A stretch of 64,000 nucleotides of DNA, from the NCBI RefSeq assembly GCF_014644555.1, contig NZ_BMKX01000001.1:496001-560000 (forward strand). The letters are read 5' to 3'. The DNA comes from Glutamicibacter ardleyensis. GTDB taxonomy: Bacteria; Actinomycetota; Actinomycetes; Actinomycetales; Micrococcaceae. Below the pieces are notes generated by a model, which was given only the letters and a program-made list of their open reading frames with translations, was not told the DNA's origin and made no database searches. Positions 23,487 through 61,779 of the stretch are shown piece by piece (within the stretch, counting starts at the first letter, position 1; each line of letters starts with the position of its first letter). Position numbers and translations under genes: made by a program.

Positions 23487-23500
23487 AGTTAATTGCCGTT

Positions 23501-39815: not shown

Positions 39816-39816
39816 G

Positions 39817-41139: not shown

Positions 41140-41290
41140 GGCGTACCTGCTTCTCTTTGGCGGCGGAAGCATTTCACTTCCTCGGTCAAGATCTAATAAG
41201 ACCCGAAACTCGTACCGTCATGTGATCCAGACCTCTCGAATTGTCCGAAATGTCAGACTTTGAAGAAATATCGGCATTTGAGACACGAAA

Positions 41291-41330
41291 GAGGCCTAAA
41301 ATCACCCATTTGGGTATGCCTTAGGCCTCT
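41291..41330 (-). terminator. Terminator of the APC permease gene
   Basis: GAGGCCTAA and TTAGGCCTC enclose an inner hairpin (CCCATTTGGG). It lies 17 bp past the stop codon at 41347. Confidence 0.8.
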
Positions 41331-41346
41331 GGAAACGTGAAGAGAA

Positions 41347-42792: not shown

Positions 42793-42943
42793 GTTGTACT
42801 TCCGTGTTGATGGATCGAAAATAAGTCCATCAGCTATTGTCCGGCCTGTCACAGAGGTGCATTTCGCAGCTCACATCAACGGCGTAACACTTAACGGTAA
42901 GCGGTATCAAAAGTTCGACAAGCGGTAGTTTTAATGTCTTGGA

Positions 42944-44128
42944 TTACTTCTTCTGCTTCAAAAAAACGGCAAAGATAACGGCGATTATTTGAAGTAACAC
43001 GACACACAAGACCACCGTGGACCACCCAAAATGCATGAACGGTACACCAATGAGCCAGCCAAGTAGCGAAGACCCTACATAGTAGAAGAGATTGTAAAGA
43101 CTCGCGGCTTGAGCGCGAGTGGTCGGTGCAAGTAACGGAACCCAACCGCTGGCCACCGCATGAGCTGCGAAAAATCCTGCGGTGAAGATGATCATGCCTA
43201 AAATGATCATCATCAAGCTTGCCGACACGGTCAGCAATAGCCCGGCCATACTCACCACGATGCTCAGCAGCAACGTTCCTCGCCGGCCCAGTTTCGCGAC
43301 CAGCCGCCCACTAGCCACCGCGGACCAGGTGCCTGAGAGGTAGGCAATGAATACTAGGGAAGCTAAGGAGGCTGGCACCAAAAATGGTGGGGCTTCGAGA
43401 CGAAATGCGAGGTAGTTATAGACCGCGACAAATCCTCCCATCAGCAAGAACCCCTGGAGATAAAGCAACGGCATCCGCCCGCGCAGGGCACGTTTGAACT
43501 TGCCGAGATTGGGACGAAGTCCGCGTTGCTCTACCGGGGTGAATCCTTGCGCTGCCGGAGCTTTAAGCAGGAAAAATAACGTGGCGCCGGCCGCCATCAG
43601 GCTCACCGAGGCAACACCCCAACGCCACCCAGCAGGTTCACCAACCCAGCTAGCGACCAGACGCCCGGCTAACCCGCCGAGGGTAGTTCCCGAGATGTAG
43701 GTTCCACTGGCTAAGGCTACTGCGCGTGGGGTTAGCTCATCGGCAAGATAAGCCAGCGCACTACCCGGAACTCCGGCCAGTGCAATCCCTTCCAGAAAAC
43801 GCACAACGATCAACGGTTCAAAGCCAGTCATCATGGAGCTGGTTAACCCGAGCACCACCGAGGAAATGAGCGCGATAGCGATCACTCTGCGCCGGCCAAT
43901 ACGATCCGAAATAATGGCCCAAGGAGTAACGGCCAGAGCCAGTCCTAAGGTCGCGGCAGAAACCGTCAATGCGGCTTGAGATGAACTGATATTCAGGTCT
44001 TCAGCGATACTCGGCAAGAGTCCCTGAACCGAATACAGCTGGGAGAAGGTGGCCACACCACCGGCAAACAACGCCAGCAGCATGCCACGGTAAGGAACTG
44101 AGTGTGGTTCGTGTCCGGTAAAACTCAA
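42944..44128 (-). CDS. MFS transporter, YnfM/arabinose-efflux-like (DHA) group
   Basis: 394 residues, 12 helices. FAGGVATFSQLYSVQGLLPSIAEDLN in the first part and SDRIGRRRVIAIALI (motif A) identify the AraJ/YnfM-like branch, usually drug or sugar efflux. It starts two bases after the stop of the CPBP protease gene, so the two are translationally coupled. Confidence 0.88.
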   Translation of the reverse strand: MSFTGHEPHSVPYRGMLLALFAGGVATFSQLYSVQGLLPSIAEDLNISSSQAALTVSAATLGLALAVTPWAIISDRIGRRRVIAIALISSVVLGLTSSMMTGFEPLIVVRFLEGIALAGVPGSALAYLADELTPRAVALASGTYISGTTLGGLAGRLVASWVGEPAGWRWGVASVSLMAAGATLFFLLKAPAAQGFTPVEQRGLRPNLGKFKRALRGRMPLLYLQGFLLMGGFVAVYNYLAFRLEAPPFLVPASLASLVFIAYLSGTWSAVASGRLVAKLGRRGTLLLSIVVSMAGLLLTVSASLMMIILGMIIFTAGFFAAHAVASGWVPLLAPTTRAQAASLYNLFYYVGSSLLGWLIGVPFMHFGWSTVVLCVVLLQIIAVIFAVFLKQKK

Positions 44129-44130
44129 AC

Positions 44131-44904
44131 CTAGACCCCAGTGGGAAGTAGCGGATACACCAGGTAAAGCATCAATAGCGCCATGGCGTTATTGATGAAG
44201 TGCAACAGGTAGGCGTAGGCCAACGACTTACCCGAAAGAATATAAGCCAAGGACATCAAGACGCCCAGCATTAGATAGGGCAGAATCTGGGTGATCGACG
44301 CAATTCCACCACCGTTGAGGAAATGGATTGACGCGAACACGATAGTGGAGATCAGTGCACAGACCCAGATATTGAGTTTGCGTGACAGCTTGCCAATGAG
44401 CAGATGGCGGAAAAGATATTCCTCGACAAAAGGACCAAAGACCGCAGTCACTACAAACATCATCGGCAACGGAACTGCGGTGGTCATACCCTGCAGGGCT
44501 TCTTGGTTTGCACTGACCTGTGGCCCACCAAAAAGCGTGGTGACAATGGCGGAAAAGAAGATCGTTAGCAACCACCCACCAGGCAACATCAACCATTTGG
44601 CCCACGGGTAGTACTTCATGGTTTTGAAGGACTCGAAGAAGTGCGCCCCACAGTGCACCATCGCCACGATGAAGAAGGTGGTGTACAGAATCAGGTTGAT
44701 CCCGAACAAAGCCTGTTCTTGCGTATCAAAGGCACTAAAATACCCGGGAATTAACCCGATCAGTGAAGCCCCGCCCAACACGAAAAAGAGAATGTAGGCA
44801 ACTACAGTCCACCAGTCACCACGGGTCATCGCTCCAGGGTCAAAGACCCGTTGTTTGCGGCGCGGCAGAAAATACTGCTGAGAGTAAGGCGGGGGTTGCT
44901 GCAT
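44131..44904 (-). CDS. CPBP-family intramembrane metalloprotease
   Basis: 257 residues with about seven membrane helices. Glutamic-type catalytic motifs of the Abi/CPBP family: EEYLFRHLL (EExxxR), FASIHFLNGG (FxxxH) and HFINNAMAL (HxxxN). Members cleave membrane substrates or mediate bacteriocin immunity. It is followed two bases later by an MFS efflux gene. Confidence 0.88.
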   Translation of the reverse strand: MQQPPPYSQQYFLPRRKQRVFDPGAMTRGDWWTVVAYILFFVLGGASLIGLIPGYFSAFDTQEQALFGINLILYTTFFIVAMVHCGAHFFESFKTMKYYPWAKWLMLPGGWLLTIFFSAIVTTLFGGPQVSANQEALQGMTTAVPLPMMFVVTAVFGPFVEEYLFRHLLIGKLSRKLNIWVCALISTIVFASIHFLNGGGIASITQILPYLMLGVLMSLAYILSGKSLAYAYLLHFINNAMALLMLYLVYPLLPTGV

Positions 44905-45001
44905 ATTCCTACCCTATCTAGTCAGCTGGCCAATCTTGTATCCACCGGCTGTGAAAGCCATTAGTGGCTCATGACAAATCAGTCATTGGTACTGCACTTA
45001 A

Positions 45002-45044
45002 CGTTCTCTGCCCACCGCATCGTCGCGGTGGGCAGAGAACATTT
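45002..45044 (-). terminator. Terminator downstream of the aquaporin gene
   Basis: A long perfect stem (arm GTTCTCTGCCCACCGC) with a six-base loop, 15 bp past the aquaporin stop. Bidirectional in form. Confidence 0.85.
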
Positions 45045-45057
45045 AGTCAAGGATTTA

Positions 45058-45807
45058 CTACACCAGAGGAGCAGACATCGGTTTGGCGAACAGCTTCGAA
45101 TAGCTCAGACCCGCAATCGCTGCACCGAGCAACGGTGCAAGGATGAACAGCCAGACCTGGCCCAGTGCTTCGGGACCTGCAAACCACGCAACACCCAAGG
45201 AACGAGCCGGGTTCACCGACGTATTGGTCACCGGAATAGCGACCAGGTGAATCAGGGTCAGTGACAGACCGATGGACAGTCCTGCAAAGCCTATGGGAGC
45301 ACGCTCATCGGTAGATCCCAGAATCACAAACAGGAAGATTGCAGTCAGCACTACCTCAACAATCAACGCCGAGAGCAACGAGTAACCGTCAGGGGAACGA
45401 CCCCCGTAACCGTTGGACGCAAAACCTGATTCAACCGCATTAAATCCAGATTTACCTGAGGCGATGGCGAAGAGCACTAACCCGGCAACCGATGCAGCGA
45501 CGACCTGAGTGATCATGTAGGCGGGAACAGCTTTCCACTCCACACGCTTGGCAAGTGCGGCACCGAAGGTGACCGCGGGGTTGAAGTGTCCCCCGGAGAT
45601 ATGACCGACCGTGTAGACCATGACCAGCACAGTCAGACCGAAGGCGAGGGCCACACCGAGGAAACCGATACCCATGTTGACGGTATCGCCGTCGAGGACT
45701 TGCGCGGCGAAGATGGCTGAACCACAACCACCGAAGACAAGAACGAAGGTACCAAGGAACTCTGCGGCCAAACGTGAGCCCATGGAGGGTGATGGTGATT
45801 GTGACAT
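45058..45807 (-). CDS. aqpZ: Aquaporin Z-type water channel
   Basis: 249 residues with six membrane helices and both pore motifs ([10 protein letters not shown] and SVNPARSLG). [11 protein letters not shown] in helix 1 and the compact size fit AqpZ and not glycerol-facilitating GlpF. Single gene; predicted inner-membrane water channel. Confidence 0.93.
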
Positions 45808-45969
45808 GCTTTCCCTTTCCTAGAAGCAAGGACCACAAGATTAGGCACAGTCTATGCAGTTGCCCGCGAACAAAAAAGGGCAGTATTGGGCCGAGCAGAA
45901 GTATTTTTGGTGTCCGCGGAATAGATTGCAGAGGCTGTAGACGCCCACTCAGTGGGTGCCGGCCCGCAC

Positions 45970-47223
45970 TCAGGCGGGGTGCGTGTCCTTCGACCGGGCG
46001 AGCTGGCGCGCGAGCATGCCCGTCAGCGCAATGCCCAACACCGAGAAGGCCCCGGTTAGCCACCATGACCCATGCCATCCGCCGACCAGCAACGCCACCC
46101 AGGCGATAAGGAACGGCCCGAAGAAATTGCCCACGTTGAAGATCTGCTGCATCAGTCCGATGACCGCCGCCACCGAACCTCCGGGCGGGGCTAGGTCCAC
46201 CGCGATGCGCGACAGGATCGCCGGAGCCGCACCGCCGACCATGGAAAAGAGGACGGCGAACCCTAGCTGCGCGATAAGCCCAACCCCGGCACCCCAATTG
46301 ATGGCGAAAACACCGACCGAGGAGACGGCCATGACCACGAAGCAGGCTACGAGCATTGCGTTCGGACTGGAGCCGCGCTGCAAGAACACCCCTGAGCCCA
46401 GCGCGCCGATGATGTTCACTCCGCCGACCAGCGCGGTCAGTAGCCCCGCGGTCAGGGAACTGGCGCCGACGGCTTGGTAGATCGACGGAAGAAAGCCCAT
46501 CACCGCCATCCACTGGATGGTATAGCAGGCGAACACCAGCCCGGCGACCCATGGCCCGATGCTGCGGACGGTGGTCAGCACCATCCGTCCGGCCGATTTC
46601 GTGCTCTGGCCACTGGGCCGGGCTTTGTCGGCAGGTACCAGTTTGAGCAAAGGCACCAGCATGGCTACCGCAAAGACCGCCATGACCAACCACAATACGC
46701 GCCAGCTCACGGTTTCAAGCAGCAACGCAGACACCGTGAATCCGAACAGCGCCGCAGTACCTTGGAAGGCGCCCCATCCGGCCATGGCGGCATTCAGCCG
46801 CGACGGTGGGCAGCATTCGCGGATCAGCGCCGGGGCCAGCACCGTGCACAGCAGGAAGCCAATGCCTTCTACCGCACGTGATGCCATGAGCAGGGCCACC
46901 TCGGTGGCGATAGCGCCGGTGCACGACCCGGCAGCAAGCAACACCAGCCCGGCGACCAGCATTCTGCGTAGCCCGAGTCGCTCTCCAAACCAGGCGACGG
47001 CCAGACCGCCGAGCATGCTCGCCACCTGGATAATGCCCAGCAGCATGCCGGACCGAAGGAGCCCTAGCCCGAGCTCCTCATCGATACTCGATAGGGCGCT
47101 GGGCAGCTTCCAGATGTGCATGGCAGCCACGACCCCCACGCAAACGATAACCACCCAGGAAGGTTCCGGATCGGAACCCGCGCGGCGCGGCGCGGCCGTG
47201 TTCACCTCAATCGGCTGCAACAA
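45970..47223 (-). CDS. MFS transporter of the P450 island
   Basis: 417 residues, 12 helices (GERLGLRRMLVAGLVLLAAG is the loop 2-3 motif). It belongs to the CP/NimT-like or related MFS group and its substrate is not evident. It is divergent from the island's IclR regulator, and the shared 152-bp gap contains the first copy of the 17-bp operator motif, so it is probably co-regulated with the P450 genes as an uptake or efflux partner. Confidence 0.85.
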   Translation of the reverse strand: MLQPIEVNTAAPRRAGSDPEPSWVVIVCVGVVAAMHIWKLPSALSSIDEELGLGLLRSGMLLGIIQVASMLGGLAVAWFGERLGLRRMLVAGLVLLAAGSCTGAIATEVALLMASRAVEGIGFLLCTVLAPALIRECCPPSRLNAAMAGWGAFQGTAALFGFTVSALLLETVSWRVLWLVMAVFAVAMLVPLLKLVPADKARPSGQSTKSAGRMVLTTVRSIGPWVAGLVFACYTIQWMAVMGFLPSIYQAVGASSLTAGLLTALVGGVNIIGALGSGVFLQRGSSPNAMLVACFVVMAVSSVGVFAINWGAGVGLIAQLGFAVLFSMVGGAAPAILSRIAVDLAPPGGSVAAVIGLMQQIFNVGNFFGPFLIAWVALLVGGWHGSWWLTGAFSVLGIALTGMLARQLARSKDTHPA

Positions 47224-47300
47224 AGAACTCCTAGGGACCTGAAAATGCTACTGTGGGCTGGATCCCAGCCTGCCCGACCCGGATCACCGGACGGATCCGC

Positions 47301-47317
47301 TTTCCGTCTAATGGAAA
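47301..47317. promoter_or_regulatory. 17-bp palindrome, copy 1 of the putative island operator
   Basis: TTTCCGTCTAATGGAAA; on the other strand TTTCCATTAGACGGAAA. It lies between the divergent MFS and iclR genes, 78 bp and 59 bp from their starts. Confidence 0.75.
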
Positions 47318-47375
47318 GTTTCGTCGGTGCGCCAGTTATCCGATTCACCGCACCCGCATCGAGAAAGGGTCCGCC

Positions 47376-48179
47376 GTGGCCAATGCCCATCCCCGCAAGA
47401 AGCGCGAATCCGCCTCCCCGTCCCCGACTCCGGGCGCGACGGTGACCTCTCGGGCGCTGGCACTGCTCGGCTCCTTCGACTCTGCGCACCCCAGACTCTC
47501 GTTGAGCGAAATGGCACGCCGGGCAGAGATTCCGGTGGCCACCGCCCATCGTCTGTCCTCGGAGCTAGTCTTCTGGGGCGCATTAGAACGTTCCGGGCAG
47601 GACTACGTGGTGGGGCACCGCCTGTGGAAGCTGGGCCTACTGGCACCGGTGCGCAAGAACATCGGTGAGCTGGCCGCCCCTTATATGCAGGATGTCTTGT
47701 TCGTGACGCAGAACGTGGTGAACCTGTTCATCCTCGAAGATGACCACGTACTCCTTCTCGAACGACTCTCTGGCACCCGCTCGGGGGCTCCCTTCCGGCG
47801 CGTAGGAGAGCAGTTGCCACTGCACGCATCCGCGGCTGGCAAGGCGATCTTGGCCTTCGGCGCCCCCGATCTTTGGGAGACGGCACTGGAGAACATGGCC
47901 CGGGCGGGCCAAATGACCGAGCATACGATTTCCTCACCCGCCCAGCTGCGCCGCGAGGTCGCGATGGTGCGCGAACGCGGCTATGCGACCACCAGCCAGG
48001 AGGCCGGGCTGGACAACTTCGGCATCGCCGTCCCGATCATCTCCTCCGACGGAACCTGCACCGCCTCGCTGGGCGTGGTCACGCAAAACCAGCCGGTCGC
48101 CGTAGGCCCAATCGTGCCGGTCTTGCGCATCGCGGCCCGTGGCATAGGACGCCGCATCAGCCTGGGCGGAGAGTACTGA
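47376..48179 (+). CDS. IclR-family regulator of the P450 island
   Basis: 267 residues from GTG 47376, preceded by AAAGGG; the frame is open to 47253 but the extension crosses the operator. N-terminal winged helix (LSLSEMARRAEIPVATAHRLSSELVFWGALER) and full IclR effector domain (LPLHASAAGKAILAF, RERGYATTSQEAGLDNFGIAVPI). Members often respond to aromatic acids. Its position between a MFS gene and the reductase/P450 genes, with the same palindrome at each divergent or upstream promoter, suggests it controls the whole island. Confidence 0.9.
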   Translation: MANAHPRKKRESASPSPTPGATVTSRALALLGSFDSAHPRLSLSEMARRAEIPVATAHRLSSELVFWGALERSGQDYVVGHRLWKLGLLAPVRKNIGELAAPYMQDVLFVTQNVVNLFILEDDHVLLLERLSGTRSGAPFRRVGEQLPLHASAAGKAILAFGAPDLWETALENMARAGQMTEHTISSPAQLRREVAMVRERGYATTSQEAGLDNFGIAVPIISSDGTCTASLGVVTQNQPVAVGPIVPVLRIAARGIGRRISLGGEY

Positions 48180-48200
48180 CGGCGGACAATTCCGACCGGC

Positions 48201-48217
48201 ATTCCATTGGATGGAAA
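48201..48217. promoter_or_regulatory. 17-bp palindrome, copy 2
   Basis: ATTCCATTGGATGGAAA, 105 bp before the reductase start and 22 bp after the iclR stop. Same pattern as the copies at 47301 and 55137. Confidence 0.72.
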
Positions 48218-48321
48218 GGTCGCAAAATGTGTCGCAAGATACATCTAATCTGAATTCACGCCGCGGAAATCAGTTCCTTCCGCCGACTTCCAACTTTCGA
48301 GACCCTCAGGAGCGGTAGCTC

Positions 48322-49302
48322 ATGCCTGTCACTGCCCCCAGCTTCGCCCCGGCGACCATCGACACCGTGATCGAGGCCGTCGAGCATCCCGCACAATCGG
48401 TTGCCTCGCTGGTATTGCGCCGCTCCGACGGCCAGCAGTTTCCCGCTTGGGAAGCTGGTTCGCACATCGACGTGCACCTAGAGAACGGGCTGATCCGCCA
48501 GTACTCGCTGTGCTCCTCGCGTCAGAGCCTCTCCGAGCTGCGCATCGGTGTACTGCGCACCCCCGATTCGCGTGGCGGTTCCGCCCACGTGCACGACGCC
48601 CTGCGCGCCGGTGAGACGCTGAGAATTTCTGCTCCGCGCAACAACTTCCCGCTGGTCGACTCGCGCAAGTACCTGTTCTTGGCCGGCGGCATCGGCATCA
48701 CCCCGATCATTCCGATGCTCGAAGCCGTCGAGGCGGCCGGGCGCCAGTGGGTTCTCTACTACGGTGGGCGCTCACGGGACACCATGGCCTTCGCGCGAGA
48801 GCTAGAAGCCACGTACGGCACCGAGAAGGTCAAGATCATCGCAGAAGATGTTGAAGGCCGACTAAATCTCCAAGAAATCCTCGGCATGCCCCGCGCCCAC
48901 ATGCTGGTTTACGCCTGCGGTCCGGGTGGCATGCTCGGCGCCATCGAGGATTTCTGCATGGGCTGGCCGCCGGGCGTCCTACACACCGAGCGCTTCGTGG
49001 CCAACGACCTAGGCGCAGGCGGCAATACCGAACCCTTCGAGGTCGAGCTGTCGCTGACCGGAACCACCGTCACCGTCGACACCCACCAGAGCATCCTGGA
49101 GGCCGTCGAGCAGGCCGGGGCGCGCGTACTTTCCAGCTGCCGCGCGGGGTTGTGCGGCACCTGCGAAACTCGCATCGTCTCCGGCGAGGCGGAGCACCGC
49201 GACGCCGCGTTGACCGAAGCCGACAAGGATGCCGGCGAGGTCATGATGGTCTGCGTCTCCCGCGCCGCCGCAGGTTGCAGCCGCCTGGTCCTCGAACTCT
49301 GA
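48322..49302 (+). CDS. Phthalate-dioxygenase-reductase-type FMN/2Fe-2S oxidoreductase, P450 partner
   Basis: 326 residues in the domain order FMN-binding barrel, NAD(P)H domain, C-terminal plant-type ferredoxin. RQYSLCSS binds FMN, GGIGITPI and YACGPGGM belong to the nucleotide domain, and the iron-sulfur Cys lie in SSCRAGLCGTCETR plus VCVSRA (C-x4-C-x2-C-x29-C type). It passes electrons from NADH to a monooxygenase. It ends 17 bp before the P450 gene, so it is the likely redox partner, as in the fused CYP116B enzymes but here split. A VanB-like role for a Rieske enzyme is unlikely because none is present. Confidence 0.92.
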   Translation: MPVTAPSFAPATIDTVIEAVEHPAQSVASLVLRRSDGQQFPAWEAGSHIDVHLENGLIRQYSLCSSRQSLSELRIGVLRTPDSRGGSAHVHDALRAGETLRISAPRNNFPLVDSRKYLFLAGGIGITPIIPMLEAVEAAGRQWVLYYGGRSRDTMAFARELEATYGTEKVKIIAEDVEGRLNLQEILGMPRAHMLVYACGPGGMLGAIEDFCMGWPPGVLHTERFVANDLGAGGNTEPFEVELSLTGTTVTVDTHQSILEAVEQAGARVLSSCRAGLCGTCETRIVSGEAEHRDAALTEADKDAGEVMMVCVSRAAAGCSRLVLEL

Positions 49303-49319
49303 TCCCCTTAGGAGCAATC

Positions 49320-50522
49320 ATGTCTACCATCTTGCACGAACCGGCGATCTTCACCGAAGATCCATTCGACCCTGCGGTCATCGCCGACCCGTACCCGTTC
49401 TTGGCCCGCCTGCGCGAGGCCGGATCCGTCAGCTATCTGGAAGCTACCGGCAGTTACGCCGTGGCTGGCTATGAGGAGGTCTACGAGGTCCTCACCGACT
49501 TCGAGACCTACTCCTCGGCCGGCGGCCTGGGCCCACGCGACATCCGCAAGGATGAAGCCTGGCGCCCGCCGAGCATTCTGGAATCTGACCCGCCGATCCA
49601 CACCGTGATGCGTCGCGCGCTGACCGGCGTGATCAACCCGGGCACGGTCCGCGCGCTGCGCGGCCCCTTCACTCCCCCGGCCGTTGAGCTGACCACTGCC
49701 CTGGCCAAGCTCCAGGGATTCGACGCGATCACTGACCTGGCCGAGAAGTACCCGCTGCGCGTCTTCCCGGACGCAGTGGGCATTCCCGAAGAAGGCCGCG
49801 AGCATCTGCTTCCTTACGGCAACATGGTCTTCAACGCCTTCGGGCCGGAGAACTACATTTTCAAGCAGGCTTTTGCGCAAGGTGATGCCCATGCTGCGGC
49901 CGTGATGAAGAGCTGCCAACGCGAGTCCATGGACGAGGTCGGTTTCGGCGCTCAAATCTGGGCCAAGGTCGCCGAGGGGCTGATCAGCGAGCAACAGGCT
50001 ACCTTGTTGGTGCGCGCGCTGCTTTCTGCCGGGGTGGACACCACCATCTTTGGCATTGGCAACACCCTCTCCGTGCTCGCCCGCTACCCCGAAGCCTGGG
50101 CCCAGCTGCGTAAAAACCCGTCCATGGCGAAGTTCGCCGTCGACGAGGCGCTGCGCCTGGAATCACCCTTCCAGAAGTTCCACCGCACCGTGGCGGTGGA
50201 TACCGTGTTGGGCGGGGTCAAGCTGGAAGCCGGCACCAAGGTGTTGGTCTTCCTCGGAGCTGCCAACCGCGACCCGCGCAAGTGGGGCGAGGATGCCGAC
50301 AGCTTCAGCCTGGACCGCTCGTCTTCCGGCCATGTGGCCTTCGGCATGGGACTGCACCAGTGTGTGGGCCAGCCGATCGCCCGCATGGAAATGGAAATCG
50401 TCCTCCAGCAGCTGCTGGAACGTGTTCAGACCATCGAACCGGCCGGAGCGCCGGTGCCGATTATCCACAACGTGCTGCGCGGATTCGAGTCGCTTCCAGT
50501 CAGTATCACCGCGGCCCGCTAA
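49320..50522 (+). CDS. Cytochrome P450, CYP199A-like para-substituted benzoate monooxygenase
   Basis: 400-residue soluble P450. The heme-binding loop FGMGLHQCVG, the I-helix oxygen motif SAGVDTT and the K-helix ExxR (EALR) are present. Stretches such as AWRPPSILESDPPIHT, GREHLLPYGNMVFNAFGPEN and LLVRALLSAG strongly resemble the CYP199A group that O-demethylates or hydroxylates 4-methoxybenzoate and other para-substituted benzoates. ATG 49320 follows AGGAG. It is co-transcribed with the reductase. Expected reaction: p-methoxybenzoate to p-hydroxybenzoate and formaldehyde. The resemblance is from memory of the family, not a search. Confidence 0.88.
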   Translation: MSTILHEPAIFTEDPFDPAVIADPYPFLARLREAGSVSYLEATGSYAVAGYEEVYEVLTDFETYSSAGGLGPRDIRKDEAWRPPSILESDPPIHTVMRRALTGVINPGTVRALRGPFTPPAVELTTALAKLQGFDAITDLAEKYPLRVFPDAVGIPEEGREHLLPYGNMVFNAFGPENYIFKQAFAQGDAHAAAVMKSCQRESMDEVGFGAQIWAKVAEGLISEQQATLLVRALLSAGVDTTIFGIGNTLSVLARYPEAWAQLRKNPSMAKFAVDEALRLESPFQKFHRTVAVDTVLGGVKLEAGTKVLVFLGAANRDPRKWGEDADSFSLDRSSSGHVAFGMGLHQCVGQPIARMEMEIVLQQLLERVQTIEPAGAPVPIIHNVLRGFESLPVSITAAR

Positions 50523-50649
50523 GCGACCGCACCTCCCGAGCAAGTCCCCCGCTGCACAGCACTCGCTGGCACCGGGCCTTGTTTGCCAACCCTAAAAACG
50601 GCCCGTCGCCCGCAAGGCGTCCCACAATTCCACCCACAAGGGGAACCCC

Positions 50650-52011
50650 ATGGCTTACACCACCAAGGCACCGATGGTGCCGCCGGCTGAGACCAAGCAG
50701 AACCCGGCCGCCTGGACTTCGCGCAAGCGCACCGCCTACGGGTGGACCGTCACGGTTATGCTGCTCATCTTGATGATGGTCAGCTGGGCTGACAAGGCCA
50801 TCTTGGGCATCGTCGCCGTGCCGATCATGAAGGATCTGGGCATCAGCCCGGCGCAGTTCGGCCTTCTCGGCTCCGCGGTATTCATGCTCTTTGGCATCGC
50901 CCAGTTCGTCGCCGCACCCATCGCCAACAAGGTCAAGGCCAAATGGATCCTGCTGGTGCTGTGCCTGATCTGGTCCGTGGCCCAAGTACCGGTATTCCTC
51001 TTCGCGTCATTGCCCGCGCTATGGATCAGCCGCCTGCTGCTGGGCGCGGGCGAAGGCCCGCTGGCCCCAATCACCATGCACGCGGTGTACAAGTGGTTCC
51101 CGGCAAAGCGCTCGGCCACCCCGGCCGCTCTGGCCTCCGCCGGCGTGACCCTAGGCATCGTCGCCTTCGCCCCGGTCATCGCCTGGGTGGCCGCGGAATT
51201 CGGCTGGAAGTCGACCTTCGTCTTCCTCGCGGTGCTCGGCGTGGTCTGGTCGGTGCTGTGGCTGTTCATCGGCAAGGAAGGCCCCTACACCTCGGTGCAG
51301 GCCGAGCACGCCATCGAAGGGACCGCCGATCAGGGAAGTACCGCGGCCGTCGCGGCGGCGGATCGCACCATTCGCTACGTCAAGTCCTTCGCCACCCCGA
51401 CCTGGATCCTCGCGGTACTGTGCTCCTTCCTGGGGTACTGGACCTTCACCGTGGCTATGACCTGGCTGCCGGCCTACTTCGAAACCGTGGTCGGCACCTC
51501 GACCCGCGAAGCGGGGTCGATGATCGCCCTCCCAGCCATCTGGGGCGCGATCGCCACGGTCGGCCTGAGCTGGTTCACCCAGTTCCTGGGCAACCGCGGG
51601 CTGACCACCCGTGTCTCACGTGGACTGGTGCTCGGCGGCTCGACCCTGTTCGCAGGCATCATGGTACTACTGGGCACGCTAGCCAGCAGCTCCACCGCGG
51701 CTCTAGTGTTCTTCACCTTCGGCTTCGGCACCGCACCGGCGCTGTTCGCGCTGACCTACCTAGTAGTTGCGGAAACCACGAGCATCGGCCAGCGCGGCGC
51801 GTTGCTGCAGATCTCCAACGCCTGCCTGACCGCCGGCGGGCTCTTCGCCCCGATGGTCGTGGGACTACTCGTGGAGAATGCCGCCACTCCAGCCATCGGC
51901 TACGAGAACGCGTTCCTGCTGACCGGCGGCATGCTGGTGGCCATGGGAGTGTTGGCCTGTCTAGGCATCAACCAGCAGCGTGACCGCAAGCGTCTGGGCC
52001 TCGATATCTGA
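50650..52011 (+). CDS. MFS transporter, organic-anion (ACS/AAHS-like), P450 operon
   Basis: 453 residues, 12 helices. Helix 1 has MMVSWADKAILGIVAVPI and the loop 2-3 region is ANKVKAKWIL; RLLLGAGEGPLAPITMHAVYKWFP is close to the anion:cation symporter pattern. It probably imports the aromatic acid that the P450 acts on. It is third gene of the reductase-P450 unit, 127 bp after the P450. A strong terminator follows. Confidence 0.87.
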   Translation: MAYTTKAPMVPPAETKQNPAAWTSRKRTAYGWTVTVMLLILMMVSWADKAILGIVAVPIMKDLGISPAQFGLLGSAVFMLFGIAQFVAAPIANKVKAKWILLVLCLIWSVAQVPVFLFASLPALWISRLLLGAGEGPLAPITMHAVYKWFPAKRSATPAALASAGVTLGIVAFAPVIAWVAAEFGWKSTFVFLAVLGVVWSVLWLFIGKEGPYTSVQAEHAIEGTADQGSTAAVAAADRTIRYVKSFATPTWILAVLCSFLGYWTFTVAMTWLPAYFETVVGTSTREAGSMIALPAIWGAIATVGLSWFTQFLGNRGLTTRVSRGLVLGGSTLFAGIMVLLGTLASSSTAALVFFTFGFGTAPALFALTYLVVAETTSIGQRGALLQISNACLTAGGLFAPMVVGLLVENAATPAIGYENAFLLTGGMLVAMGVLACLGINQQRDRKRLGLDI

Positions 52012-52042
52012 GCCCGGAGAGCCGATAGCGCGCACTTCGCGC

Positions 52043-52079
52043 AAAAGGGTGGTCTGCCAATTGGCAGGCCACCCTTTTC
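52043..52079. terminator. Bidirectional terminator after the P450 operon
   Basis: AAAAGGGTGG and CCACCCTTTT close an extended stem with inner TGCCAATTGGCA; U-runs are available on both strands. Confidence 0.9.
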
Positions 52080-52211
52080 GCATGCCCCGTTCCGAGACCA
52101 AAACCAATGCCTACAAGTAGCAGGGAAGCTGGCACCTAGAATTGGCCGGGCCGTGGCGGGACAGTGCGTTGGAGAACAAACGATGCACCAGCCGATAGTT
52201 CGTCACCTGCG

Positions 52212-52501
52212 TTATTTCCACAAACTGGGAGTGATACGACTGACCACTTCGTAGTACATGGGAGCGATCACCGTCCGGTCCGGACTGTCGATGGTATCGC
52301 CGATCGAACTCGGCTCCACCAAGAGCCAGCTGCCGAGTATCTATTTGGCGTCAGGCATTGCACATGGCGACGGCCCCGCTGTTTTCCGAGAGTCGGAATT
52401 CGGGTTGGGCGGTGCTTCCGGCATTCTGTGCGAATGCCGGGGCTGAGCGCAGCCGCCACGACGTACCGTGCGGCCAGACCAAAGAAGATACGACGACGCA
52501 T
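52212..52501 (-). pseudogene. Degenerate gene for a small exported protein
   Basis: From ATG 52501 the reading begins MRRRIFFGLAAR with a hydrophobic core like a signal peptide, but the frame must shift near 52450 to give SAPAFAQNAGSTAQPEF, a natural cleavage site and mature start. It must shift again after an in-frame TGA near 52355 to read IDSPDRTVIAPMYYEVV and end at TAA 52212. Two frameshifts and a stop indicate decay. The rest of 52012-52722 holds only the terminator and nothing else I can support. Confidence 0.45.
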
Positions 52502-52722
52502 AGTAGGCACTTCACTGGGCAGTGATCAGATGGCACTACTTACTACCCAAATAGCCAGCCGGCCTGCCTGTCTATCCAGTGAGAAAAACCAAAACAACCA
52601 TCGTATTCCGAATGAACCATACACGTATGTCTGGGTCCGAATTCCGTAACGTGCGGACATAGCACAAGGGGAGGACACCGGCATCTGCCAGGCGTCCTCC
52701 CCTTGTGGTTATTCGTGTGCGG

Positions 52723-53655
52723 CTAGGCCACGATCTGAGATGCGGCGCGCTCCACCACGAAACGCTGTCCACTGGTGGCCACTTGGACAGGACCATCGAA
52801 GGTGGATTCCGCGCGGGTGCGCCATTCATCGGCCGTGGCCACACCGGCCAGATGCGAGAGCACCAGTTGCTTGGCGCCGCAAGCTTGGGCCACCCGGCCC
52901 GCGCCTTCGGGCGAGCTATGGGATTTGGCCTGGTGGTTTAGGAAAGATTCGTCGAACCCGCGAGAAGCGAAGAATTCTAGATTGACCGCCTCATGGACCA
53001 GAATGTCGGTGCCCCGGGCTAGGCGCACCAATGCCTCACACTCGGCAGTGTCACCGGAGAAGGTGACAGATCCGTCCGCGGTATCAAAGCGGAAGGCGAA
53101 GGCCGGGTAGACCGGAGGGTGCTCCACGAGCACAGCGCTGACGGTGACCCGCTCGTCCTGGTAGACCATAAAGGGTTCGTCGCCACCGGCTTGCGGGATA
53201 GCGATGTTCTCGACTTCCAGCAAGCCATCCATCACCGGACGGCCCTCGTCATTAACACGGATGTCCAGATCATAGGAGAAAGCCTGCAGGGTGTGCTCGA
53301 TCATGTCTCGGGTGCCGGAGAGCTGGTTGCCGCGCGGGTGGTGCGGATCGCGTCCCGGGCCCAGGAAGCGCACCGGAGAGGTGAAACCCTCCACCGGCTT
53401 GCCCCAATTCCACATCAGGTACGCGGGCAACTCGCCCACGTGGTCCGAATGCAGGTGGGTGATGAAGGCTGCGGCCATGTCCTTACCGCGCAGCCCGGCC
53501 TCATGCGCGGCGCGCACGCAGCCCAGGCCGAAGTCGACCAGGTAGTGCCGTCCGCCCACAACCACCGCGCTGGCCATTCCGTTTTCCTTGCCGCGGATGG
53601 CCGGGCCGGCCGCGGTGCCCAAGGTGATCAGTTCTGTCTGGAAATTCTGGTTCAT
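52723..53655 (-). CDS. RNase Z-like metallo-beta-lactamase-fold hydrolase
   Basis: 310 residues from ATG 53655 (GAGGACGAGAGC upstream). The intact metal motif HLHSDHVGEL (about residue 68), the later SGDTAEC Asp and a final SHLAG His are present, so it should bind two zinc ions. This branch (arylsulfatase/RNase Z/lactonase-like) hydrolyses small esters, sulfates or lactones. It starts 31 bp after the aldehyde dehydrogenase stop and is part of that operon. A role in releasing an aromatic precursor from an ester or sulfate is a guess. Confidence 0.83.
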   Translation of the reverse strand: MNQNFQTELITLGTAAGPAIRGKENGMASAVVVGGRHYLVDFGLGCVRAAHEAGLRGKDMAAAFITHLHSDHVGELPAYLMWNWGKPVEGFTSPVRFLGPGRDPHHPRGNQLSGTRDMIEHTLQAFSYDLDIRVNDEGRPVMDGLLEVENIAIPQAGGDEPFMVYQDERVTVSAVLVEHPPVYPAFAFRFDTADGSVTFSGDTAECEALVRLARGTDILVHEAVNLEFFASRGFDESFLNHQAKSHSSPEGAGRVAQACGAKQLVLSHLAGVATADEWRTRAESTFDGPVQVATSGQRFVVERAASQIVA

Positions 53656-53686
53656 GCTCTCGTCCTCTGGGAATCCCATTCTCGGC

Positions 53687-55066
53687 TCAGGCGTGGTGTC
53701 GCAGGTTGATTGTGCGCGGTTCGAGGTACTCTTCAAGCCCCCAGCGCCCGCGTTCGCGTCCGGTGCCCGAGGCCTTCCAGCCACCGAACGGCGCATCCAG
53801 TTCCACCACGGTGTGCTGGTTGATCCACACGGTGCCGGCTTCTAACTCAAACGCCACCTCACGGGCGTGGTCCAGATCCGGGGACCAGACCGAGGCGCCC
53901 AGGCCGTAGGGGCCCGAGTTGACGTGCGGAAGCAACTCGTCGAGGTGGTCGTAGGCGACGATGGGCAGGGCGCTGCCAAATTGTTCGTCGTCCACCAGGG
54001 ACATACCCGGGGTCGCGTCGGCAATGACGGTGGGCTCCATGAAATAGCCGGGCAAATCGCAGCCAATGCCGCCACCGGTGGCGATGCGCGCGCCGGCGCC
54101 GACCGCGGAGCCGACCAATTCGCGCACGATCTCGCGCTGCTTGGCGTTGTGCATCGGGCCCATGCTAGTTCCGGGCCCAACACCATGCCCGAGCACCAGC
54201 GCTTGGGCCTCGGCGGCAATGGCTTCGGTCAGTTCCGCGGCCCGGTGGCGCGGCACGTAAACGCGCTTGACGGCCATGCAGACCTGCCCCGCATTACGGA
54301 AGGCGCTACCCACGATGCCGCGTGCGGTAAATTCCAGGTCCGCGTCATCGAGCACCACGGCCGCGTCATTGCCGCCCAGCTCAAGGGTGACCCGCTTGAC
54401 TGACTGCGCGGCGGTGGCGGCCACGGAGGTTCCGACCTCGGTGGATCCGGTGAAAGAAATCTTGCGCACGTCTGCATGTCCAGCCAAGGCTACGTTCACG
54501 GTGCGACGGCTACTGGTGCGGGTTTGCACGACGCCGGCCGGCAGCACCGTGTTCATCACTTCCACCAATGCGATAGTGGACAGAGGGGTGGTGGCCGAAG
54601 GCTTGGAAATAACGGTGCAGCCGGCAGCCAGCGCGGGAGCAAGCTTAACGCACAGCAGGGAGATCGGGAAGTTCCACGGGGTGATGGTGCCGACCAGGCC
54701 CACCGGGCGGTATTGGACTTCCAGCTGCCGGCCCGCGCGTTCCGGAAGCGTCTCGCTCAAATCCCAGTCAAGGTCCGCATAATAATCGAAAAGGGATGCA
54801 GCCACCTGGAATTCACCGATGGCCTCGGTCAGCACCTTGCCCTGCTCAAGAGAGAGAATCCGGCCCAGGCGGGGCGCATCGTTGCGGATGAGCTGCGCGA
54901 CTTGGCGCATGGCGTGGCGGCGCGCCTCGCGGTCCAAGGCCCAGTTCCGGGCCGCCCCCTGAGCGACCTGGACCGCATGCTGCACGTCCGCTTCGGTGTG
55001 TTCCGGGGCATGTCCGACGACATCTAAGGTCGCCGGGTCGAGGACGTCATATGCAGACGAGGTCAT
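53687..55066 (-). CDS. NAD(P)-dependent aldehyde dehydrogenase
   Basis: 459 residues from ATG 55066 with GGAAGGAA upstream. Aldehyde dehydrogenase fold with TPWNFPISL, FTGSTEVG, catalytic Glu in TLELGGND and catalytic Cys in NAGQVCMAVKR (the F-x-N-x-G-Q-x-C motif). It oxidises an aldehyde, in this setting probably an aromatic one such as a methoxybenzaldehyde, to the acid used by the P450. It is divergent from the SDR gene, with the operator palindrome in between, and is followed by the MBL-fold gene. Confidence 0.88.
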   Translation of the reverse strand: MTSSAYDVLDPATLDVVGHAPEHTEADVQHAVQVAQGAARNWALDREARRHAMRQVAQLIRNDAPRLGRILSLEQGKVLTEAIGEFQVAASLFDYYADLDWDLSETLPERAGRQLEVQYRPVGLVGTITPWNFPISLLCVKLAPALAAGCTVISKPSATTPLSTIALVEVMNTVLPAGVVQTRTSSRRTVNVALAGHADVRKISFTGSTEVGTSVAATAAQSVKRVTLELGGNDAAVVLDDADLEFTARGIVGSAFRNAGQVCMAVKRVYVPRHRAAELTEAIAAEAQALVLGHGVGPGTSMGPMHNAKQREIVRELVGSAVGAGARIATGGGIGCDLPGYFMEPTVIADATPGMSLVDDEQFGSALPIVAYDHLDELLPHVNSGPYGLGASVWSPDLDHAREVAFELEAGTVWINQHTVVELDAPFGGWKASGTGRERGRWGLEEYLEPRTINLRHHA

Positions 55067-55136
55067 TGCGGTTCCTTCCTTCAAAGCAGTTGATATTGTC
55101 CAGCTTGGATGGAAAACTGCTAATCAACTCACTACC

Positions 55137-55153
55137 TTTCCATTGAACGGAAA
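55137..55153. promoter_or_regulatory. 17-bp palindrome, copy 3
   Basis: TTTCCATTGAACGGAAA within a longer ACTAC...GTAGT palindrome, between the divergent aldehyde dehydrogenase and SDR genes. A partial half-site (GGATGGAAA) lies at 55107-55115. Confidence 0.78.
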
Positions 55154-55246
55154 GTAGTGTCCTGCGCCACCTTCTCGTGGCGCACTATGGGAAGAGAAAC
55201 CCGGGTTACCAGCCCATCCAAGGATTTTTTGAGGAGCACAACTTTC

Positions 55247-56047
55247 ATGAGCGCATCGGCACTGCCATTGGCTATCACCGGGGTTGCCTCGGGCATTGGA
55301 GCCGCTACGGCCCAGCTTTTGTCATCCCAGGGATACGCCTTGATCGGCATCGACCGCACGACGCCGGAGGACTTCCCCGGCGAGTTCGTCCAGGCGGACC
55401 TGTCCACGAAGCAAGGGGTTAGCGAAGCCGCAGCTAAGGTCATCGCTTTGGCCCCGCAGGGTCTACGCGGGCTGGCCAATATTGCCGGAGTCCCCGGCAC
55501 TGCACCGGCCCGAGTGGTGCTCTCGGTTAATGTCTTCGCGGTCCGCGAGCTCACACGTGCGCTGGCCGAGCACTTCACCGCCGGTGCCACCGTGGTGAAC
55601 CTCGCCTCCTCGGTGGCCTTCAACTGGCGGGTCAACGCCGCCGCCTACGCTTCCTTCGCCATGGCTGCAGACCAAGAGGCCGCGCTGGACCTGGTACTCG
55701 CGGACACCGACATCGCTGAGAACTCGTACCTCTTCTCCAAGCATTGCGTGCGCGCCATGACCGAGCAGCTTTGCGCGGAGCTCTTACCGCAGCAGGTGCG
55801 GGTCAATTCGGTCAGCCCCGGACCGGTTGAAACTCCGATTCTGGCGGACTTCAAGAAAGACCACGGAACGGACAAGGTGAACTCGGCAGCGGAATTGCTC
55901 GGACGCTTCGCCAGCCCACAGGATATTGCGAGCGCAATTGCCTACCTTCTTTCGCCGCAGTCCGAATGGGTCAACGGCACTGATATCCGCGTCGACGGCG
56001 GACTGGTCGCTTACCGTGGGAGCACCGCTCTGAGCACCTCGAACTAG
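55247..56047 (+). CDS. Short-chain dehydrogenase/reductase, coniferyl-alcohol-dehydrogenase-like
   Basis: 266 residues from ATG 55247 with GAGGAG ahead. The N-terminal dinucleotide motif is TGVASGIGAATAQ, NIAG follows, and the catalytic Ser, Tyr and Lys lie in NLASSVAF and YLFSKHC (YxxxK). The large gap between Ser and Tyr and the RVNSVSPGPVETPI end resemble the 3-alpha-HSD/coniferyl alcohol dehydrogenase type. It probably oxidises an aryl alcohol to the aldehyde, feeding the divergent aldehyde dehydrogenase. Confidence 0.85.
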   Translation: MSASALPLAITGVASGIGAATAQLLSSQGYALIGIDRTTPEDFPGEFVQADLSTKQGVSEAAAKVIALAPQGLRGLANIAGVPGTAPARVVLSVNVFAVRELTRALAEHFTAGATVVNLASSVAFNWRVNAAAYASFAMAADQEAALDLVLADTDIAENSYLFSKHCVRAMTEQLCAELLPQQVRVNSVSPGPVETPILADFKKDHGTDKVNSAAELLGRFASPQDIASAIAYLLSPQSEWVNGTDIRVDGGLVAYRGSTALSTSN

Positions 56048-56154
56048 ACGCGACGGCATCGTCTGCTGGCCCGAGGAAATGCAAGAACCCAAATAACCAG
56101 GTGCCGCGCCGACTGGGCGGGCCCAAGGCTGTCGGACTTCGCGCCCGCTATCTA

Positions 56155-58344
56155 TCAGCTGGCCGCGAAGAACGGATCTTTAGCTAGCTGTTTTCCAAGT
56201 TCTGGTGCCAAGGAGCGCGCAAAGTCATGGGAGAGATGCGACTGATCATAGTAGGTGATCAGCGAGCCGAGGACCGCGAAGCAACGCTCATCGGAGCAGA
56301 TGCTGTTCGTGAGGTCTGCGTGAACGATACCTTCCGGGGCAGTTTTACTGTCCAGGGCCTTCTTCAAGTTATGCCGGATGGAGAGGCCCTTGTCGCGAGT
56401 TACGGAGCAGGCCTGTGGATCTTCGGGGTTCGTAGCCACGCAGGTGGGCACGTTCTTGTTGCCGAGCCGAGGGACCTCCTGAATGACCGCGACTTTTTTG
56501 CCTTTTTCGGTCCACGACTTCCAGAGGCTGGTGAATCCTTCGGTTTTGGGATCTGAAAATTCGTAACCGGGCGAGGAAACCCACTGGCGCTTATTGCCTT
56601 GAGCCGCCACGATCACGGCATCCAGAGTTTCATCATTGGCTAGTTGTGGGCCCAGCGCCCGAATTGAATCGGTGCACAAACGCTCGGCTTGGCCACTGAG
56701 CTGTTCGGCCTGCTTCAAGGCAGCCAGCGAAGGAGAACAACCCGAACGGATATGAGTTTCAAGCTGCCAATGACGCTTTTTGGCCAGAACCTCTAGGGCC
56801 GGAAGCCACGCGGTGGCGTGTGAGTCCCCCACGACAGCAACACGGAGCTTGGGATTCTCGGTGTCTCCCAGCAGGCAGTTCTTATCCCCCACCTCGAGAG
56901 TGTCGGTCTCGCATCCTGGGAACAAAGGTGCCCGGACCTGTTGGGATACTGCGACCGCCGAAGGATATGGGGCAAAATCCGATTCCACCGGCTGACAGTT
57001 CACCGGATCCAGCAATGTGCGGGCTCCATAACAAGGATCATCTTGGCTCATTCGGGGCAGGTTGGCGCTTTGCGCCGAGGCAGCGGTTCCTGCCCAACTA
57101 ACACCGGCAATAATGAGCATTCCAGCCAGTGCAAAAATCAATGCGTTCTTTACCGGTTTGAGCAGTGAACCAAAACGTAGCGGGTTTTCAATCAAGAGTT
57201 GCGACAGCCATGCCAGCAGGAGGGTCAGCGCGAAGATTCCTGCCTCGTGATACCACTTCGGCTCGGTGTTCAGCACAAAGGGTGCCACGATAATCAGCGG
57301 CCAGTGCCACAGGTACGCGCCGTAGCTGATGTCACCAAGCCAGCGTGCCGGAGCAAGAGAGAGCCAGGTACCGTGTGAAAACCAACGCCCAAACCCATGG
57401 CTAACGTTGGCAGCAGCGAGGACGGCTGCAGTTCCCAGTGTGGGTACCAACGCCATGGTTCCGGGGAACCTGGTCAGCGTGGGAATCATCAGCGCACCAA
57501 TGAGCAGTGTTGCCAATCCAGCCCAGCCCAGCAGCATTCCGGCCCAACCACGGACACCTCGGTTGATGCATAGAAGCGCCACCAACCCTCCGACGGCAAA
57601 CTGCCAGGCTCGCGCCGCGGTATCAAAATAAGCGCCAGCTGGGTTCGCCGCGGTGATCCATAAACCGTAAACAAAACTCAGTACCGCGATGATGCTGATG
57701 GTGATCAGCATGATGCGGTGGACCGAGTACCCGCCTCGCTGTTCGGCACCGGAAGTATGTTTCCGCGGGAAAATCTTCGGGATAAGCCAGGCGCCGGCCA
57801 ACAGCAGTAATGGCCAGCAAAGGTAGAACTGCTCTTCAACCGACAAGGACCAATAGTGCTGGACCGCGGTCGCCATCTGTCCCGCCGCCGCGTAGTCGGT
57901 AGCGTCCGAGACCAGTGCCCAGTTCTCCACATAGAGTCCGGCGGCTGCAAGATGCTTGAACATTGTTCCGTGCTCGGTGGTGGGGATCCACAGATAAACC
58001 AGCAAGGCCGTCGCGAGGAGCACGGTAAAGGCCAGCGGCAAAAGCCGGCGGATGCGTCTGGCCCAGAAGCTCAGCAAAGAGATTTTCCCGGTACCCAGTA
58101 ATTCGCGATAGAGATGCGCGGTGATCAGGTAACCGGAGATGACAAAGAAGATGTCGACGCCGATAAAACCGCCGCTGAGCGCACCGGGTCGCAGGTGATG
58201 AAATATGACCAGAAGTACCGCAATGGCGCGCAGCCCTTGAAGTTCTGGGCGGAACCCCATGGAAGATCCATTGGACTGCACCGTGGGAGCTGCTGAATTA
58301 TTGGTTTTATTCGCAGACTTCTGCGCACGGGCAAGTACATTCAC
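56155..58344 (-). CDS. OafA/YrhL-type acyltransferase with C-terminal SGNH domain
   Basis: 729 residues. An N-terminal acyltransferase-3 domain has about ten membrane helices and the catalytic HH in VIFHHLRPGA. A further helix leads into an extracytoplasmic SGNH hydrolase-like domain with the GDSH motif (VAVVGDSHATAWL) and a final DQSHLS (DxxH). Such enzymes O-acetylate cell-wall or surface polysaccharides. ATG around residue 29 (MGFRPELQG) is a possible alternative start. Single gene. Confidence 0.88.
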   Translation of the reverse strand: MNVLARAQKSANKTNNSAAPTVQSNGSSMGFRPELQGLRAIAVLLVIFHHLRPGALSGGFIGVDIFFVISGYLITAHLYRELLGTGKISLLSFWARRIRRLLPLAFTVLLATALLVYLWIPTTEHGTMFKHLAAAGLYVENWALVSDATDYAAAGQMATAVQHYWSLSVEEQFYLCWPLLLLAGAWLIPKIFPRKHTSGAEQRGGYSVHRIMLITISIIAVLSFVYGLWITAANPAGAYFDTAARAWQFAVGGLVALLCINRGVRGWAGMLLGWAGLATLLIGALMIPTLTRFPGTMALVPTLGTAAVLAAANVSHGFGRWFSHGTWLSLAPARWLGDISYGAYLWHWPLIIVAPFVLNTEPKWYHEAGIFALTLLLAWLSQLLIENPLRFGSLLKPVKNALIFALAGMLIIAGVSWAGTAASAQSANLPRMSQDDPCYGARTLLDPVNCQPVESDFAPYPSAVAVSQQVRAPLFPGCETDTLEVGDKNCLLGDTENPKLRVAVVGDSHATAWLPALEVLAKKRHWQLETHIRSGCSPSLAALKQAEQLSGQAERLCTDSIRALGPQLANDETLDAVIVAAQGNKRQWVSSPGYEFSDPKTEGFTSLWKSWTEKGKKVAVIQEVPRLGNKNVPTCVATNPEDPQACSVTRDKGLSIRHNLKKALDSKTAPEGIVHADLTNSICSDERCFAVLGSLITYYDQSHLSHDFARSLAPELGKQLAKDPFFAAS

Positions 58345-58424
58345 TCGGCTAACGTTAGTGGATAACAGGCTGGTTTCCCGTGATTGCTCATGCGGTTATG
58401 CCCGACAAAGCACAAAGAAAATGG

Positions 58425-60320: not shown

Positions 60321-60393
60321 AGGTTCATTCAAACAGCATGCGCGGTTCAATAAAAGGGTACAGATCCGCCACGGCAAGGAGTAGGGTGCGCAT

Positions 60394-61764: not shown

Positions 61765-61779
61765 GTTTATTGCTACCGG

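Follow-up and report, generated by a model that had tools for sequence, protein, structure and literature searches.

A horizontally acquired island in Glutamicibacter ardleyensis links a CYP199-family P450 with a changed pocket to a conserved, probably catabolic gene set

The window analyzed here, 64,000 nucleotides of the Glutamicibacter ardleyensis genome (contig NZ_BMKX01000001.1, positions 496,001 to 560,000), contains an eight-gene block that is a horizontally acquired, probably catabolic island. The block encodes a CYP199-family cytochrome P450 with changed pocket residues, a reductase of the phthalate dioxygenase reductase (PDR) type, a short-chain dehydrogenase (SDR), an aldehyde dehydrogenase (ALDH), a hydrolase of the metallo-beta-lactamase (MBL) fold, two major facilitator superfamily transporters (MFS1 and MFS2), and an IclR-family regulator. 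Our data point to a module under a single regulon, which probably feeds a para-substituted aromatic compound into 4-hydroxybenzoate. Its features, in window coordinates, are the following.

45970-47223, minus strand: MFS1 transporter (Pfam MFS_1, 121.6 bits; start codon tentative)
47300-47318, between MFS1 and IclR: candidate operator palindrome 1 (matrix score 27.5; whole-genome pattern search)
47376-48179, plus strand: IclR-family regulator, PcaR/PcaU/PobR-like (IclR_C, HTH_IclR; likely start GTG 47376)
48200-48218, before reductase-P450-MFS2: candidate operator palindrome 2 (matrix score 27.3; whole-genome pattern search)
48322-49302, plus strand: PDR-type reductase (NAD_binding_1 at 119-208, Fer2 at 246-315)
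49314-50522, plus strand: CYP199-family P450 with remodelled pocket (matches to PDB 2fr7, 9g9q, and 4dnz; pocket residues; tree)
50650-52011, plus strand: MFS2 transporter (TIGR00893, 140.4 bits, under the cut-off of 395; member of the conserved set)
52043-52078: terminator-like inverted repeat 3' of MFS2 (18-nucleotide arms, 94% complementary)
52663-52707: terminator-like inverted repeat 3' of MBL (17-nucleotide arms, 94% complementary)
52723-53655, minus strand: MBL-fold hydrolase, RNase Z/arylsulfatase-like (likely start ATG 53655; metal ligands; Foldseek)
53687-55066, minus strand: ALDH (Aldedh, 476.3 bits; likely start ATG 55066)
55136-55154, between ALDH and SDR: candidate operator palindrome 3 (matrix score 31.1; whole-genome pattern search)
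55247-56047, plus strand: SDR of the coniferyl-alcohol dehydrogenase/3-alpha-hydroxysteroid dehydrogenase type (NF009092, 220.4 bits versus a cut-off of 242; likely start ATG 55247)

With 11 bp between the reductase and P450 genes and MFS2 next on that strand, reductase, P450, and MFS2 have the appearance of a single operon. On the minus strand, 31 bp separate ALDH from MBL, and the SDR gene is divergent from ALDH. The likely start codon of the IclR gene is preceded by AGAAAGGG, and the protein scores 120.4 bits against TIGR02431, under its cut-off of 284.75. The SDR matches the structure 2dkn with an E value of 1.5e-28.

Comparison by blastn with the same-genus genome G542 revealed an empty site. 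The window aligns at 96.6% from 38001 to 45857 and at 80.7% from 56161 to 63313, and the span between (45858-56160), with its eight genes, is represented in G542 by 560 bp. The ends drawn from this comparison lie about 115 bp further out on each side than the 45970-56047 of the initial annotation, a note made from the sequence alone, which had listed eight genes, all recovered here as open reading frames with Pfam domains, and had described the block as GC-richer, which suggested a separate origin. The latter is borne out by the empty site as well as by a scan of GC content and of GC at third codon positions (GC3): the island has 63.9% GC versus 55.6% and 56.2% in the flanks, and GC3 is 0.75-0.86 in the eight island genes versus 0.59-0.66 in five genes measured in the flanks. 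This contrast is absent in two loci with the same gene order, L017 (module 66.4%, flanks 64.8 and 66.3%) and L019 (module 62.0%, flanks 61.7 and 63.4%). No tRNA was found in the window, and the repeats listed include no convincing flanking repeat at the island ends. The gene to the right of the island was searched in 18 same-genus genomes, the window's own included; it is 88% identical in G542, and in the other 16, no match exceeds 35-38% identity, which makes these genomes uninformative on the insertion site. The divergence from G542 changes sharply across the island (45857/56161), and the 560 bp in its place contain a 110-codon open frame.

The genes of the island are conserved as a set. Among 395 genomes of the family Micrococcaceae, 80 have a P450 match at an E value of 1e-60 or better, 42 of them with an identity of at least 56% to the window P450. 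All 42 loci were viewed, six of them through named loci with matching coordinates: the genes for reductase, P450, MFS2, IclR, MBL, ALDH, and SDR stand in a single stretch in 39 genomes, and the remaining three (G540, G511, and G489) are interrupted by the ends of contigs of 6.5-6.8 kb. An MBL of the module type (at least 57% identity) occurs in 44 of the 395 genomes, namely, all 42 with the P450 plus G438 and G390; both identity limits were chosen after the gaps had been seen. Within the family, the seven genes are arranged in eight different orders, and Halopolyspora adds a ninth; therefore, the genes keep company but not position; MFS1 is less constant, being present in many, not all, module loci. 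In a sample of the order (396 genomes), only the window genome and G099 exceed 56%, and in a sample of the class (394 genomes) searched with the MBL, identity outside the window genome does not go beyond 49%. At 1e-15, neither an MBL nor an SDR match was seen in any of the 25 non-module CYP199 loci that were retrieved with their flanks. By its conserved gene set and the palindrome shared within it, the block looks like one catabolic unit. As to further content, 19 module loci (e.g., L090, L091, L092, L094-L096, and L098) carry two small proteins (clusters c8 and c9), which we take to resemble DUF202 membrane proteins; in Rhodococcus sp. DMU1, too, genes annotated as DUF202 are found close to an MBL relative. 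In Glutamicibacter nicotianae (L019:6577-8842), MFS1 and IclR each match in two overlapping pieces, which suggests frameshifts or assembly errors.

The three island promoters are apparently under one regulon. Inverted repeats at 47300-47318, 48200-48218 (one mismatch), and 55136-55154 have CTTTCC-N7-GGAAAG in common. As a plain pattern this is weak evidence, with four matches at one mismatch versus 2.0 expected. A weight matrix was built from 44 sites (29 distinct) in 16 relatives, with the window excluded and the training sites pre-selected within one mismatch of TTTCC-N7-GGAAA; its top three sites in the window are those of the island (31.1, 27.5, and 27.3), followed by a site scoring 10.1, and the best score among 30 Markov windows is 19.2. 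Furthermore, a 17-base pattern derived from the three sites themselves occurs, with one mismatch allowed, at exactly three places in the 3.94-Mb genome, all of them island sites, and the reversed control at none; since the pattern came from these sites, the weight of the search lies in the absence of further ones. Two sites scoring at least 16 are present in 19/19 close module loci longer than 12 kb, some of which are training genomes, and 0/25 non-module CYP199 loci reach this score (highest, 15.2). Position and conservation suggest that the IclR protein is the binder of the palindrome. Sites scoring 14-22 before pobA in L143-L145 were considered as part of a shared regulon and rejected, being a different palindrome (TTCTCATTCAATGA type), and a palindrome similar to that type also lies before the window genome's own pobA.

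The closest solved structures to the island P450 are 2fr7, which we take to be CYP199A2, 9g9q (PbdA), and 4dnz (CYP199A4), with E values of 1.9e-112 to 6.9e-109. Over the stretches compared, it shares 47.3% identity with PbdA and 50.1% with CYP199A2 (2fr7 chain). P450s of one subfamily by convention share about 55% identity or more, and the window P450 does not reach this level with either enzyme. Membership of CYP199A has been extended to enzymes sharing as little as 51% (PMC11530827). The heme-cysteine motif (FGxGxHxC) is present as FGMGLHQC at 343-350 and is invariant (16/16). Sixteen relatives at 71-85% identity come from named Micrococcaceae genera (15) and from Halopolyspora (one).

The best-described counterpart is PbdA/PbdB of Rhodococcus jostii RHA1, which converts para-methoxybenzoates to 4-hydroxybenzoate and, like the island, pairs a CYP199-family P450 with a flavin/iron-sulfur reductase (PMC11530827). 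In that description, the carboxylate site of PbdA is formed by Arg84, Ser87, and Ser237, a binding motif said to be conserved in CYP199A, and the pocket by Phe173, Phe176, Phe291, Ala241, Thr245, and Val288; the equivalents in CYP199A4 are Arg92, Ser95, and Ser244, with Arg243 also mentioned (PMC11854964). We use PbdA numbering, with which our count agrees except for the FNAF phenylalanines, counted at 175 and 178 versus the printed 173 and 176. The window P450 has kept Arg84, Ser87, Arg236, Ala241, Asp244, Thr245, Phe291, and both FNAF phenylalanines, and shares with CYP199A2 and CYP199A4 the fold family, the heme-cysteine motif, and the acid-alcohol pair. Unlike PbdA, the window P450 and its 16 relatives have lost one residue after Ser87 and carry S237A, Phe at Asn248, V288F, T290K, and F292H. 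In a wider alignment, all 52 module rows have Ala237, Phe288, and His292 and have kept Arg84 and Arg236; 38 rows have Lys and 14 have Met at position 290, residue 248 is variable, and Ser87 is Gly in seven (L094-L096 and L098-L101). The lysine at 290 was considered as a new carboxylate ligand and rejected, with Met in 14/15 more distant module rows and 290 left out of the pocket as given in PMC11530827. An AlphaFold model of the P450 had a mean predicted local distance difference test (pLDDT) score of 46 and was not used, and therefore, our statements on the pocket come from the alignment. The head-group end of the pocket should be more open after the serine losses and the loop deletion, and the opposite end should be narrower with Phe288, so that the substrate is expected to be placed differently from p-methoxybenzoate. 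A substrate other than, or besides, p-methoxybenzoate is likely; because both arginines are kept, an acid is still plausible.

In a tree of 80 rows, which contains duplicates (e.g., G428 equals L017, and L129 and L013 are identical), a branch with support of 99/94 separates the 52 module rows from the others. The module label was defined by Phe288 plus His292, and it is this residue label that the clade test uses; the 52 labelled rows are exactly the 51 fetched rows from gene-set loci plus the window. Nine canonical rows, including PbdA and CYP199A2, are set apart (89/87), and one long branch (L126_41) fits no group. Furthermore, another CYP199, canonical at positions 84, 87, 237, 288, and 290-292, is encoded in 12 or more of the 42 module genomes (G752, G565, G468, G555, G426, G436, G500, G514, G476, G489, G517, and G413), which argues that the two CYP199s do different work there. 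Next to the module rows stands an 18-row clade (100/100; L102-L106, L108-L119, and L124) with the deletion, Gly for Ser87, Ala237, and Phe288 but not His292. Its P450 lies near 9.4 kb in its loci (4.5 kb in L114), and a cluster c10 protein is found nearby in 17/18 loci, the shorter L114 being the exception; the three c10 proteins tested all belong to the histidine-ammonia-lyase family, over the NF006871 cut-off. The substrate of this sister clade may be an aryl-acrylate.

The initial annotation had called the P450 CYP199A-like and on that ground a p-alkoxybenzoate O-demethylase. The family assignment stands, as do Arg84 and Ser87; the function is put in doubt by the 47-50% identity, the changed Ser237 and Val288, the loop deletion, and the separate clade. 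An ordinary CYP199A enzyme, for which p-methoxybenzyl alcohol or anisaldehyde would be oxidized to p-methoxybenzoate and O-demethylated to 4-hydroxybenzoate, with pocket changes that are near-neutral, is possible, though we doubt it. It would fit the residues kept, and PbdA S237A, with an about 8-fold higher dissociation constant for p-methoxybenzoate, turns this substrate over at the wild-type rate (Table 3 of PMC11530827), which leaves p-methoxybenzoate as a possible substrate here as well. In addition, the window genome, with two other P450 matches, has no second CYP199 match at 1e-60. However, six pocket or near-pocket differences are fixed in the window and 16 relatives, at least a dozen module genomes have a normal-pocket CYP199A besides, the MBL is left without a step, and the seven rows with Gly87 resemble PbdA S87A/S237A, whose rate is about 15-fold lower (same table).

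The same serine changes bear on a different order of reactions, in which the P450 would act first, on an aldehyde, alcohol, or ester rather than the acid, and SDR and ALDH would then oxidize the 4-hydroxylated side chain to 4-hydroxybenzoate. Both PbdA serine changes gave some demethylation of p-methoxybenzaldehyde, but the gain was small, with 27-180 units on the aldehyde, compared with the 2700 that the wild type reaches on the acid (Table 3 of PMC11530827). Genome G438, which keeps SDR, ALDH, and MBL beside pobA without the P450, is as expected if these enzymes served 4-hydroxy substrates; the two arginines conserved in every module row speak for an acid, and we consider this order unlikely. 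Decidedly improbable, in our opinion, is a route from benzyl esters or alcohol to benzoate, which the P450 would hydroxylate in the para position to 4-hydroxybenzoate. Judged from the alignment, V288F should take up part of the pocket, at the expense of space for an alkoxy group, and CYP199A25 of Arthrobacter, which could belong to the module clade, is called a benzoic acid hydroxylase in a title cited in PMC11530827. The same paper, however, places A25 among the p-methoxybenzoate or veratrate O-demethylases, and contig 7 of the window's own genome encodes a benzoate 1,2-dioxygenase BenA over the curated cut-off, so that benzoate has another route.

The reductase has a NAD-binding domain followed by a C-terminal plant-type 2Fe-2S domain and matches phthalate dioxygenase reductase (2pia) over its full length (1.6e-55), with a CYP199 as its neighbor and not a Rieske oxygenase; it also matches the C-terminal parts of the P450 chains 6kbh and 6laa. 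CYP199A2 and CYP199A4 of Rhodopseudomonas, in contrast, use a separate ferredoxin and reductase. An IclR-reductase-P450 arrangement is found in 5/7 canonical-pocket CYP199 loci, none of which has the MBL or the SDR, unlike the island module, which has both.

The MBL protein is linked to the module as tightly as the P450, and the chain from alcohol to aldehyde to acid to demethylation in the initial annotation gave it no step; that scheme is plausible in outline and putative in its chemistry. The metal ligands H67, H69, D71, H72 (HLHSDH), H179, D202, and H268 are invariant (16/16). In Foldseek searches with a predicted model (pLDDT 78), the best match was the arylsulfatase 8gyg (6.7e-23), followed by YhfI, PNGM-1, and RNase Z, all at 16-25% identity, so that the likeness to arylsulfatase is one of predicted fold and of the full metal-ligand set. 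Unlike these proteins, the island MBL is encoded within a catabolic gene set, which makes RNA processing unlikely; an ester-like bond as its target is our guess. Of the 15 loci fetched for MBL relatives below 52% identity, seven are flanked by genes that we named, by reading, LysR-like and MFS-like. One of them is in the window's own genome (41% identity; G000:C1:750550-751578, L174), and an annotated Rhodococcus plasmid has the same LysR-MBL-MFS trio. MBL relatives occur in 19 plasmid records, and the four contexts viewed (36-42% identity) are mixed and name no substrate.

On general grounds, the placement of an ALDH and a hydrolase next to an O-dealkylating P450 would also be consistent with disposal of an aldehyde that the P450 releases, formaldehyde or another, with the SDR as a third member. 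We regard this as highly improbable: MBL and SDR are absent from all seven canonical-pocket loci fetched with flanks, and an ALDH is present in one (L126, 44%, at the edge of the stretch). Moreover, G438 and G390 have no P450 match at 1e-60 and keep SDR, ALDH, and MBL, which are therefore of value without the P450 and probably more than a means of by-product disposal. In G438 (L165), MFS1, IclR, SDR, ALDH, and MBL stand beside pobR-pobA-pcaH-pcaG in gap-free DNA, with no reductase, P450, or MFS2 at the locus; in its relatives L143-L145, reductase-P450-MFS2 lie between MFS1 and the pob genes. In G390 (L166), SDR, ALDH, MBL, and IclR are followed by genes for a phosphoenolpyruvate (PEP)-utilizing protein, an SDR, a ferredoxin-reductase-like protein, a further protein, and an ALDH, and operator-like sites (20.0 and 19.5) are located before ALDH/SDR and between IclR and this PEP-utilizer operon. 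The operon (L166:11804-18400) occupies the place of reductase-P450-MFS2 in the close relatives L099-L101. PEP-utilizers are also seen in L014, L016, and L013; in the latter, a second P450, the N-terminal half of a PEP synthase, and a PEP-utilizer half adjoin the module (L013:15213-19540), an arrangement reminiscent, by description, of split phenol kinases such as HpeHI/CreHI (PMC9618137).

The initial annotation had noted that the block has no Rieske demethylase, ring hydroxylase, or ring-cleavage gene, as we confirmed by Pfam for the eight proteins, and that the product must enter a pathway elsewhere. Indeed, contig 11 of the same genome encodes a PobA-type 4-hydroxybenzoate 3-monooxygenase, PcaH, and PcaG in a row. 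PcaH and PcaG are both over their cut-offs; the PobA-type enzyme scores 503 bits against NF006091 (cut-off, 351) and 391.9 against the stricter TIGR02360 (cut-off, 538.7). Near the module itself, pob genes are found in L143-L145 (pobR-pobA-pcaH after it), in L165 as described, and in L090 (pobA).

Besides the rate kept by PbdA S237A and the lack of a second CYP199 in the window genome, several findings weigh against a module of this kind with a substrate of its own. Only five loci, four of which belong to one genus, have pob genes close to the module (a proximity that also suits an ordinary CYP199A), and in L143, these genes begin about 4.7 kb past MFS2; the P450-less module of L166 adjoins the PEP-utilizer operon rather than pob genes. 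The palindrome is weaker in distant module loci, where the best site reaches 16 in 9/13 and the second-best in 4/13. None of the eight island proteins reached an NCBIfam cut-off among the matches listed (25 of 42), so that no substrate is named, and the literature searched gave no precedent for the hydrolase step.

Outside the island, the window contains a glycine riboswitch at 23500-23597 (RF00504, 65.8 bits).

In our model, the MFS transporters would import an aromatic compound, whose identity we infer, the MBL enzyme would hydrolyze an ester-like bond, and SDR and ALDH would convert the side-chain alcohol via the aldehyde to the acid. The P450, supplied by the PDR-type reductase, would then oxidize either the ring, at the para position, or the para ether to give 4-hydroxybenzoate, and PobA and PcaHG of the host would complete the breakdown, with IclR presumably controlling all three promoters via one palindrome. 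The titles and abstract starts searched, with subscription papers outside the scope, include none that describes this gene set. Whether we are dealing with an undescribed pathway, in which a new subfamily of CYP199, its pocket reshaped, would act on a para-substituted aromatic compound other than p-methoxybenzoate and an ELAC-type MBL would carry out an obligatory hydrolysis upstream of 4-hydroxybenzoate, hangs evenly in the balance.

In sum, CYP199 P450s have been studied for demethylating lignin-derived aromatic compounds, with a specificity set by few pocket residues (PMC11530827), and a CYP199 clade in which several of these residues have changed together is a natural experiment on what they select. 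The P450 with the changed pocket occurs in linkage with a regulator and five other pathway genes, and with a palindrome private to the module, promoter activity could reveal the inducer and, hence, the likely substrate.

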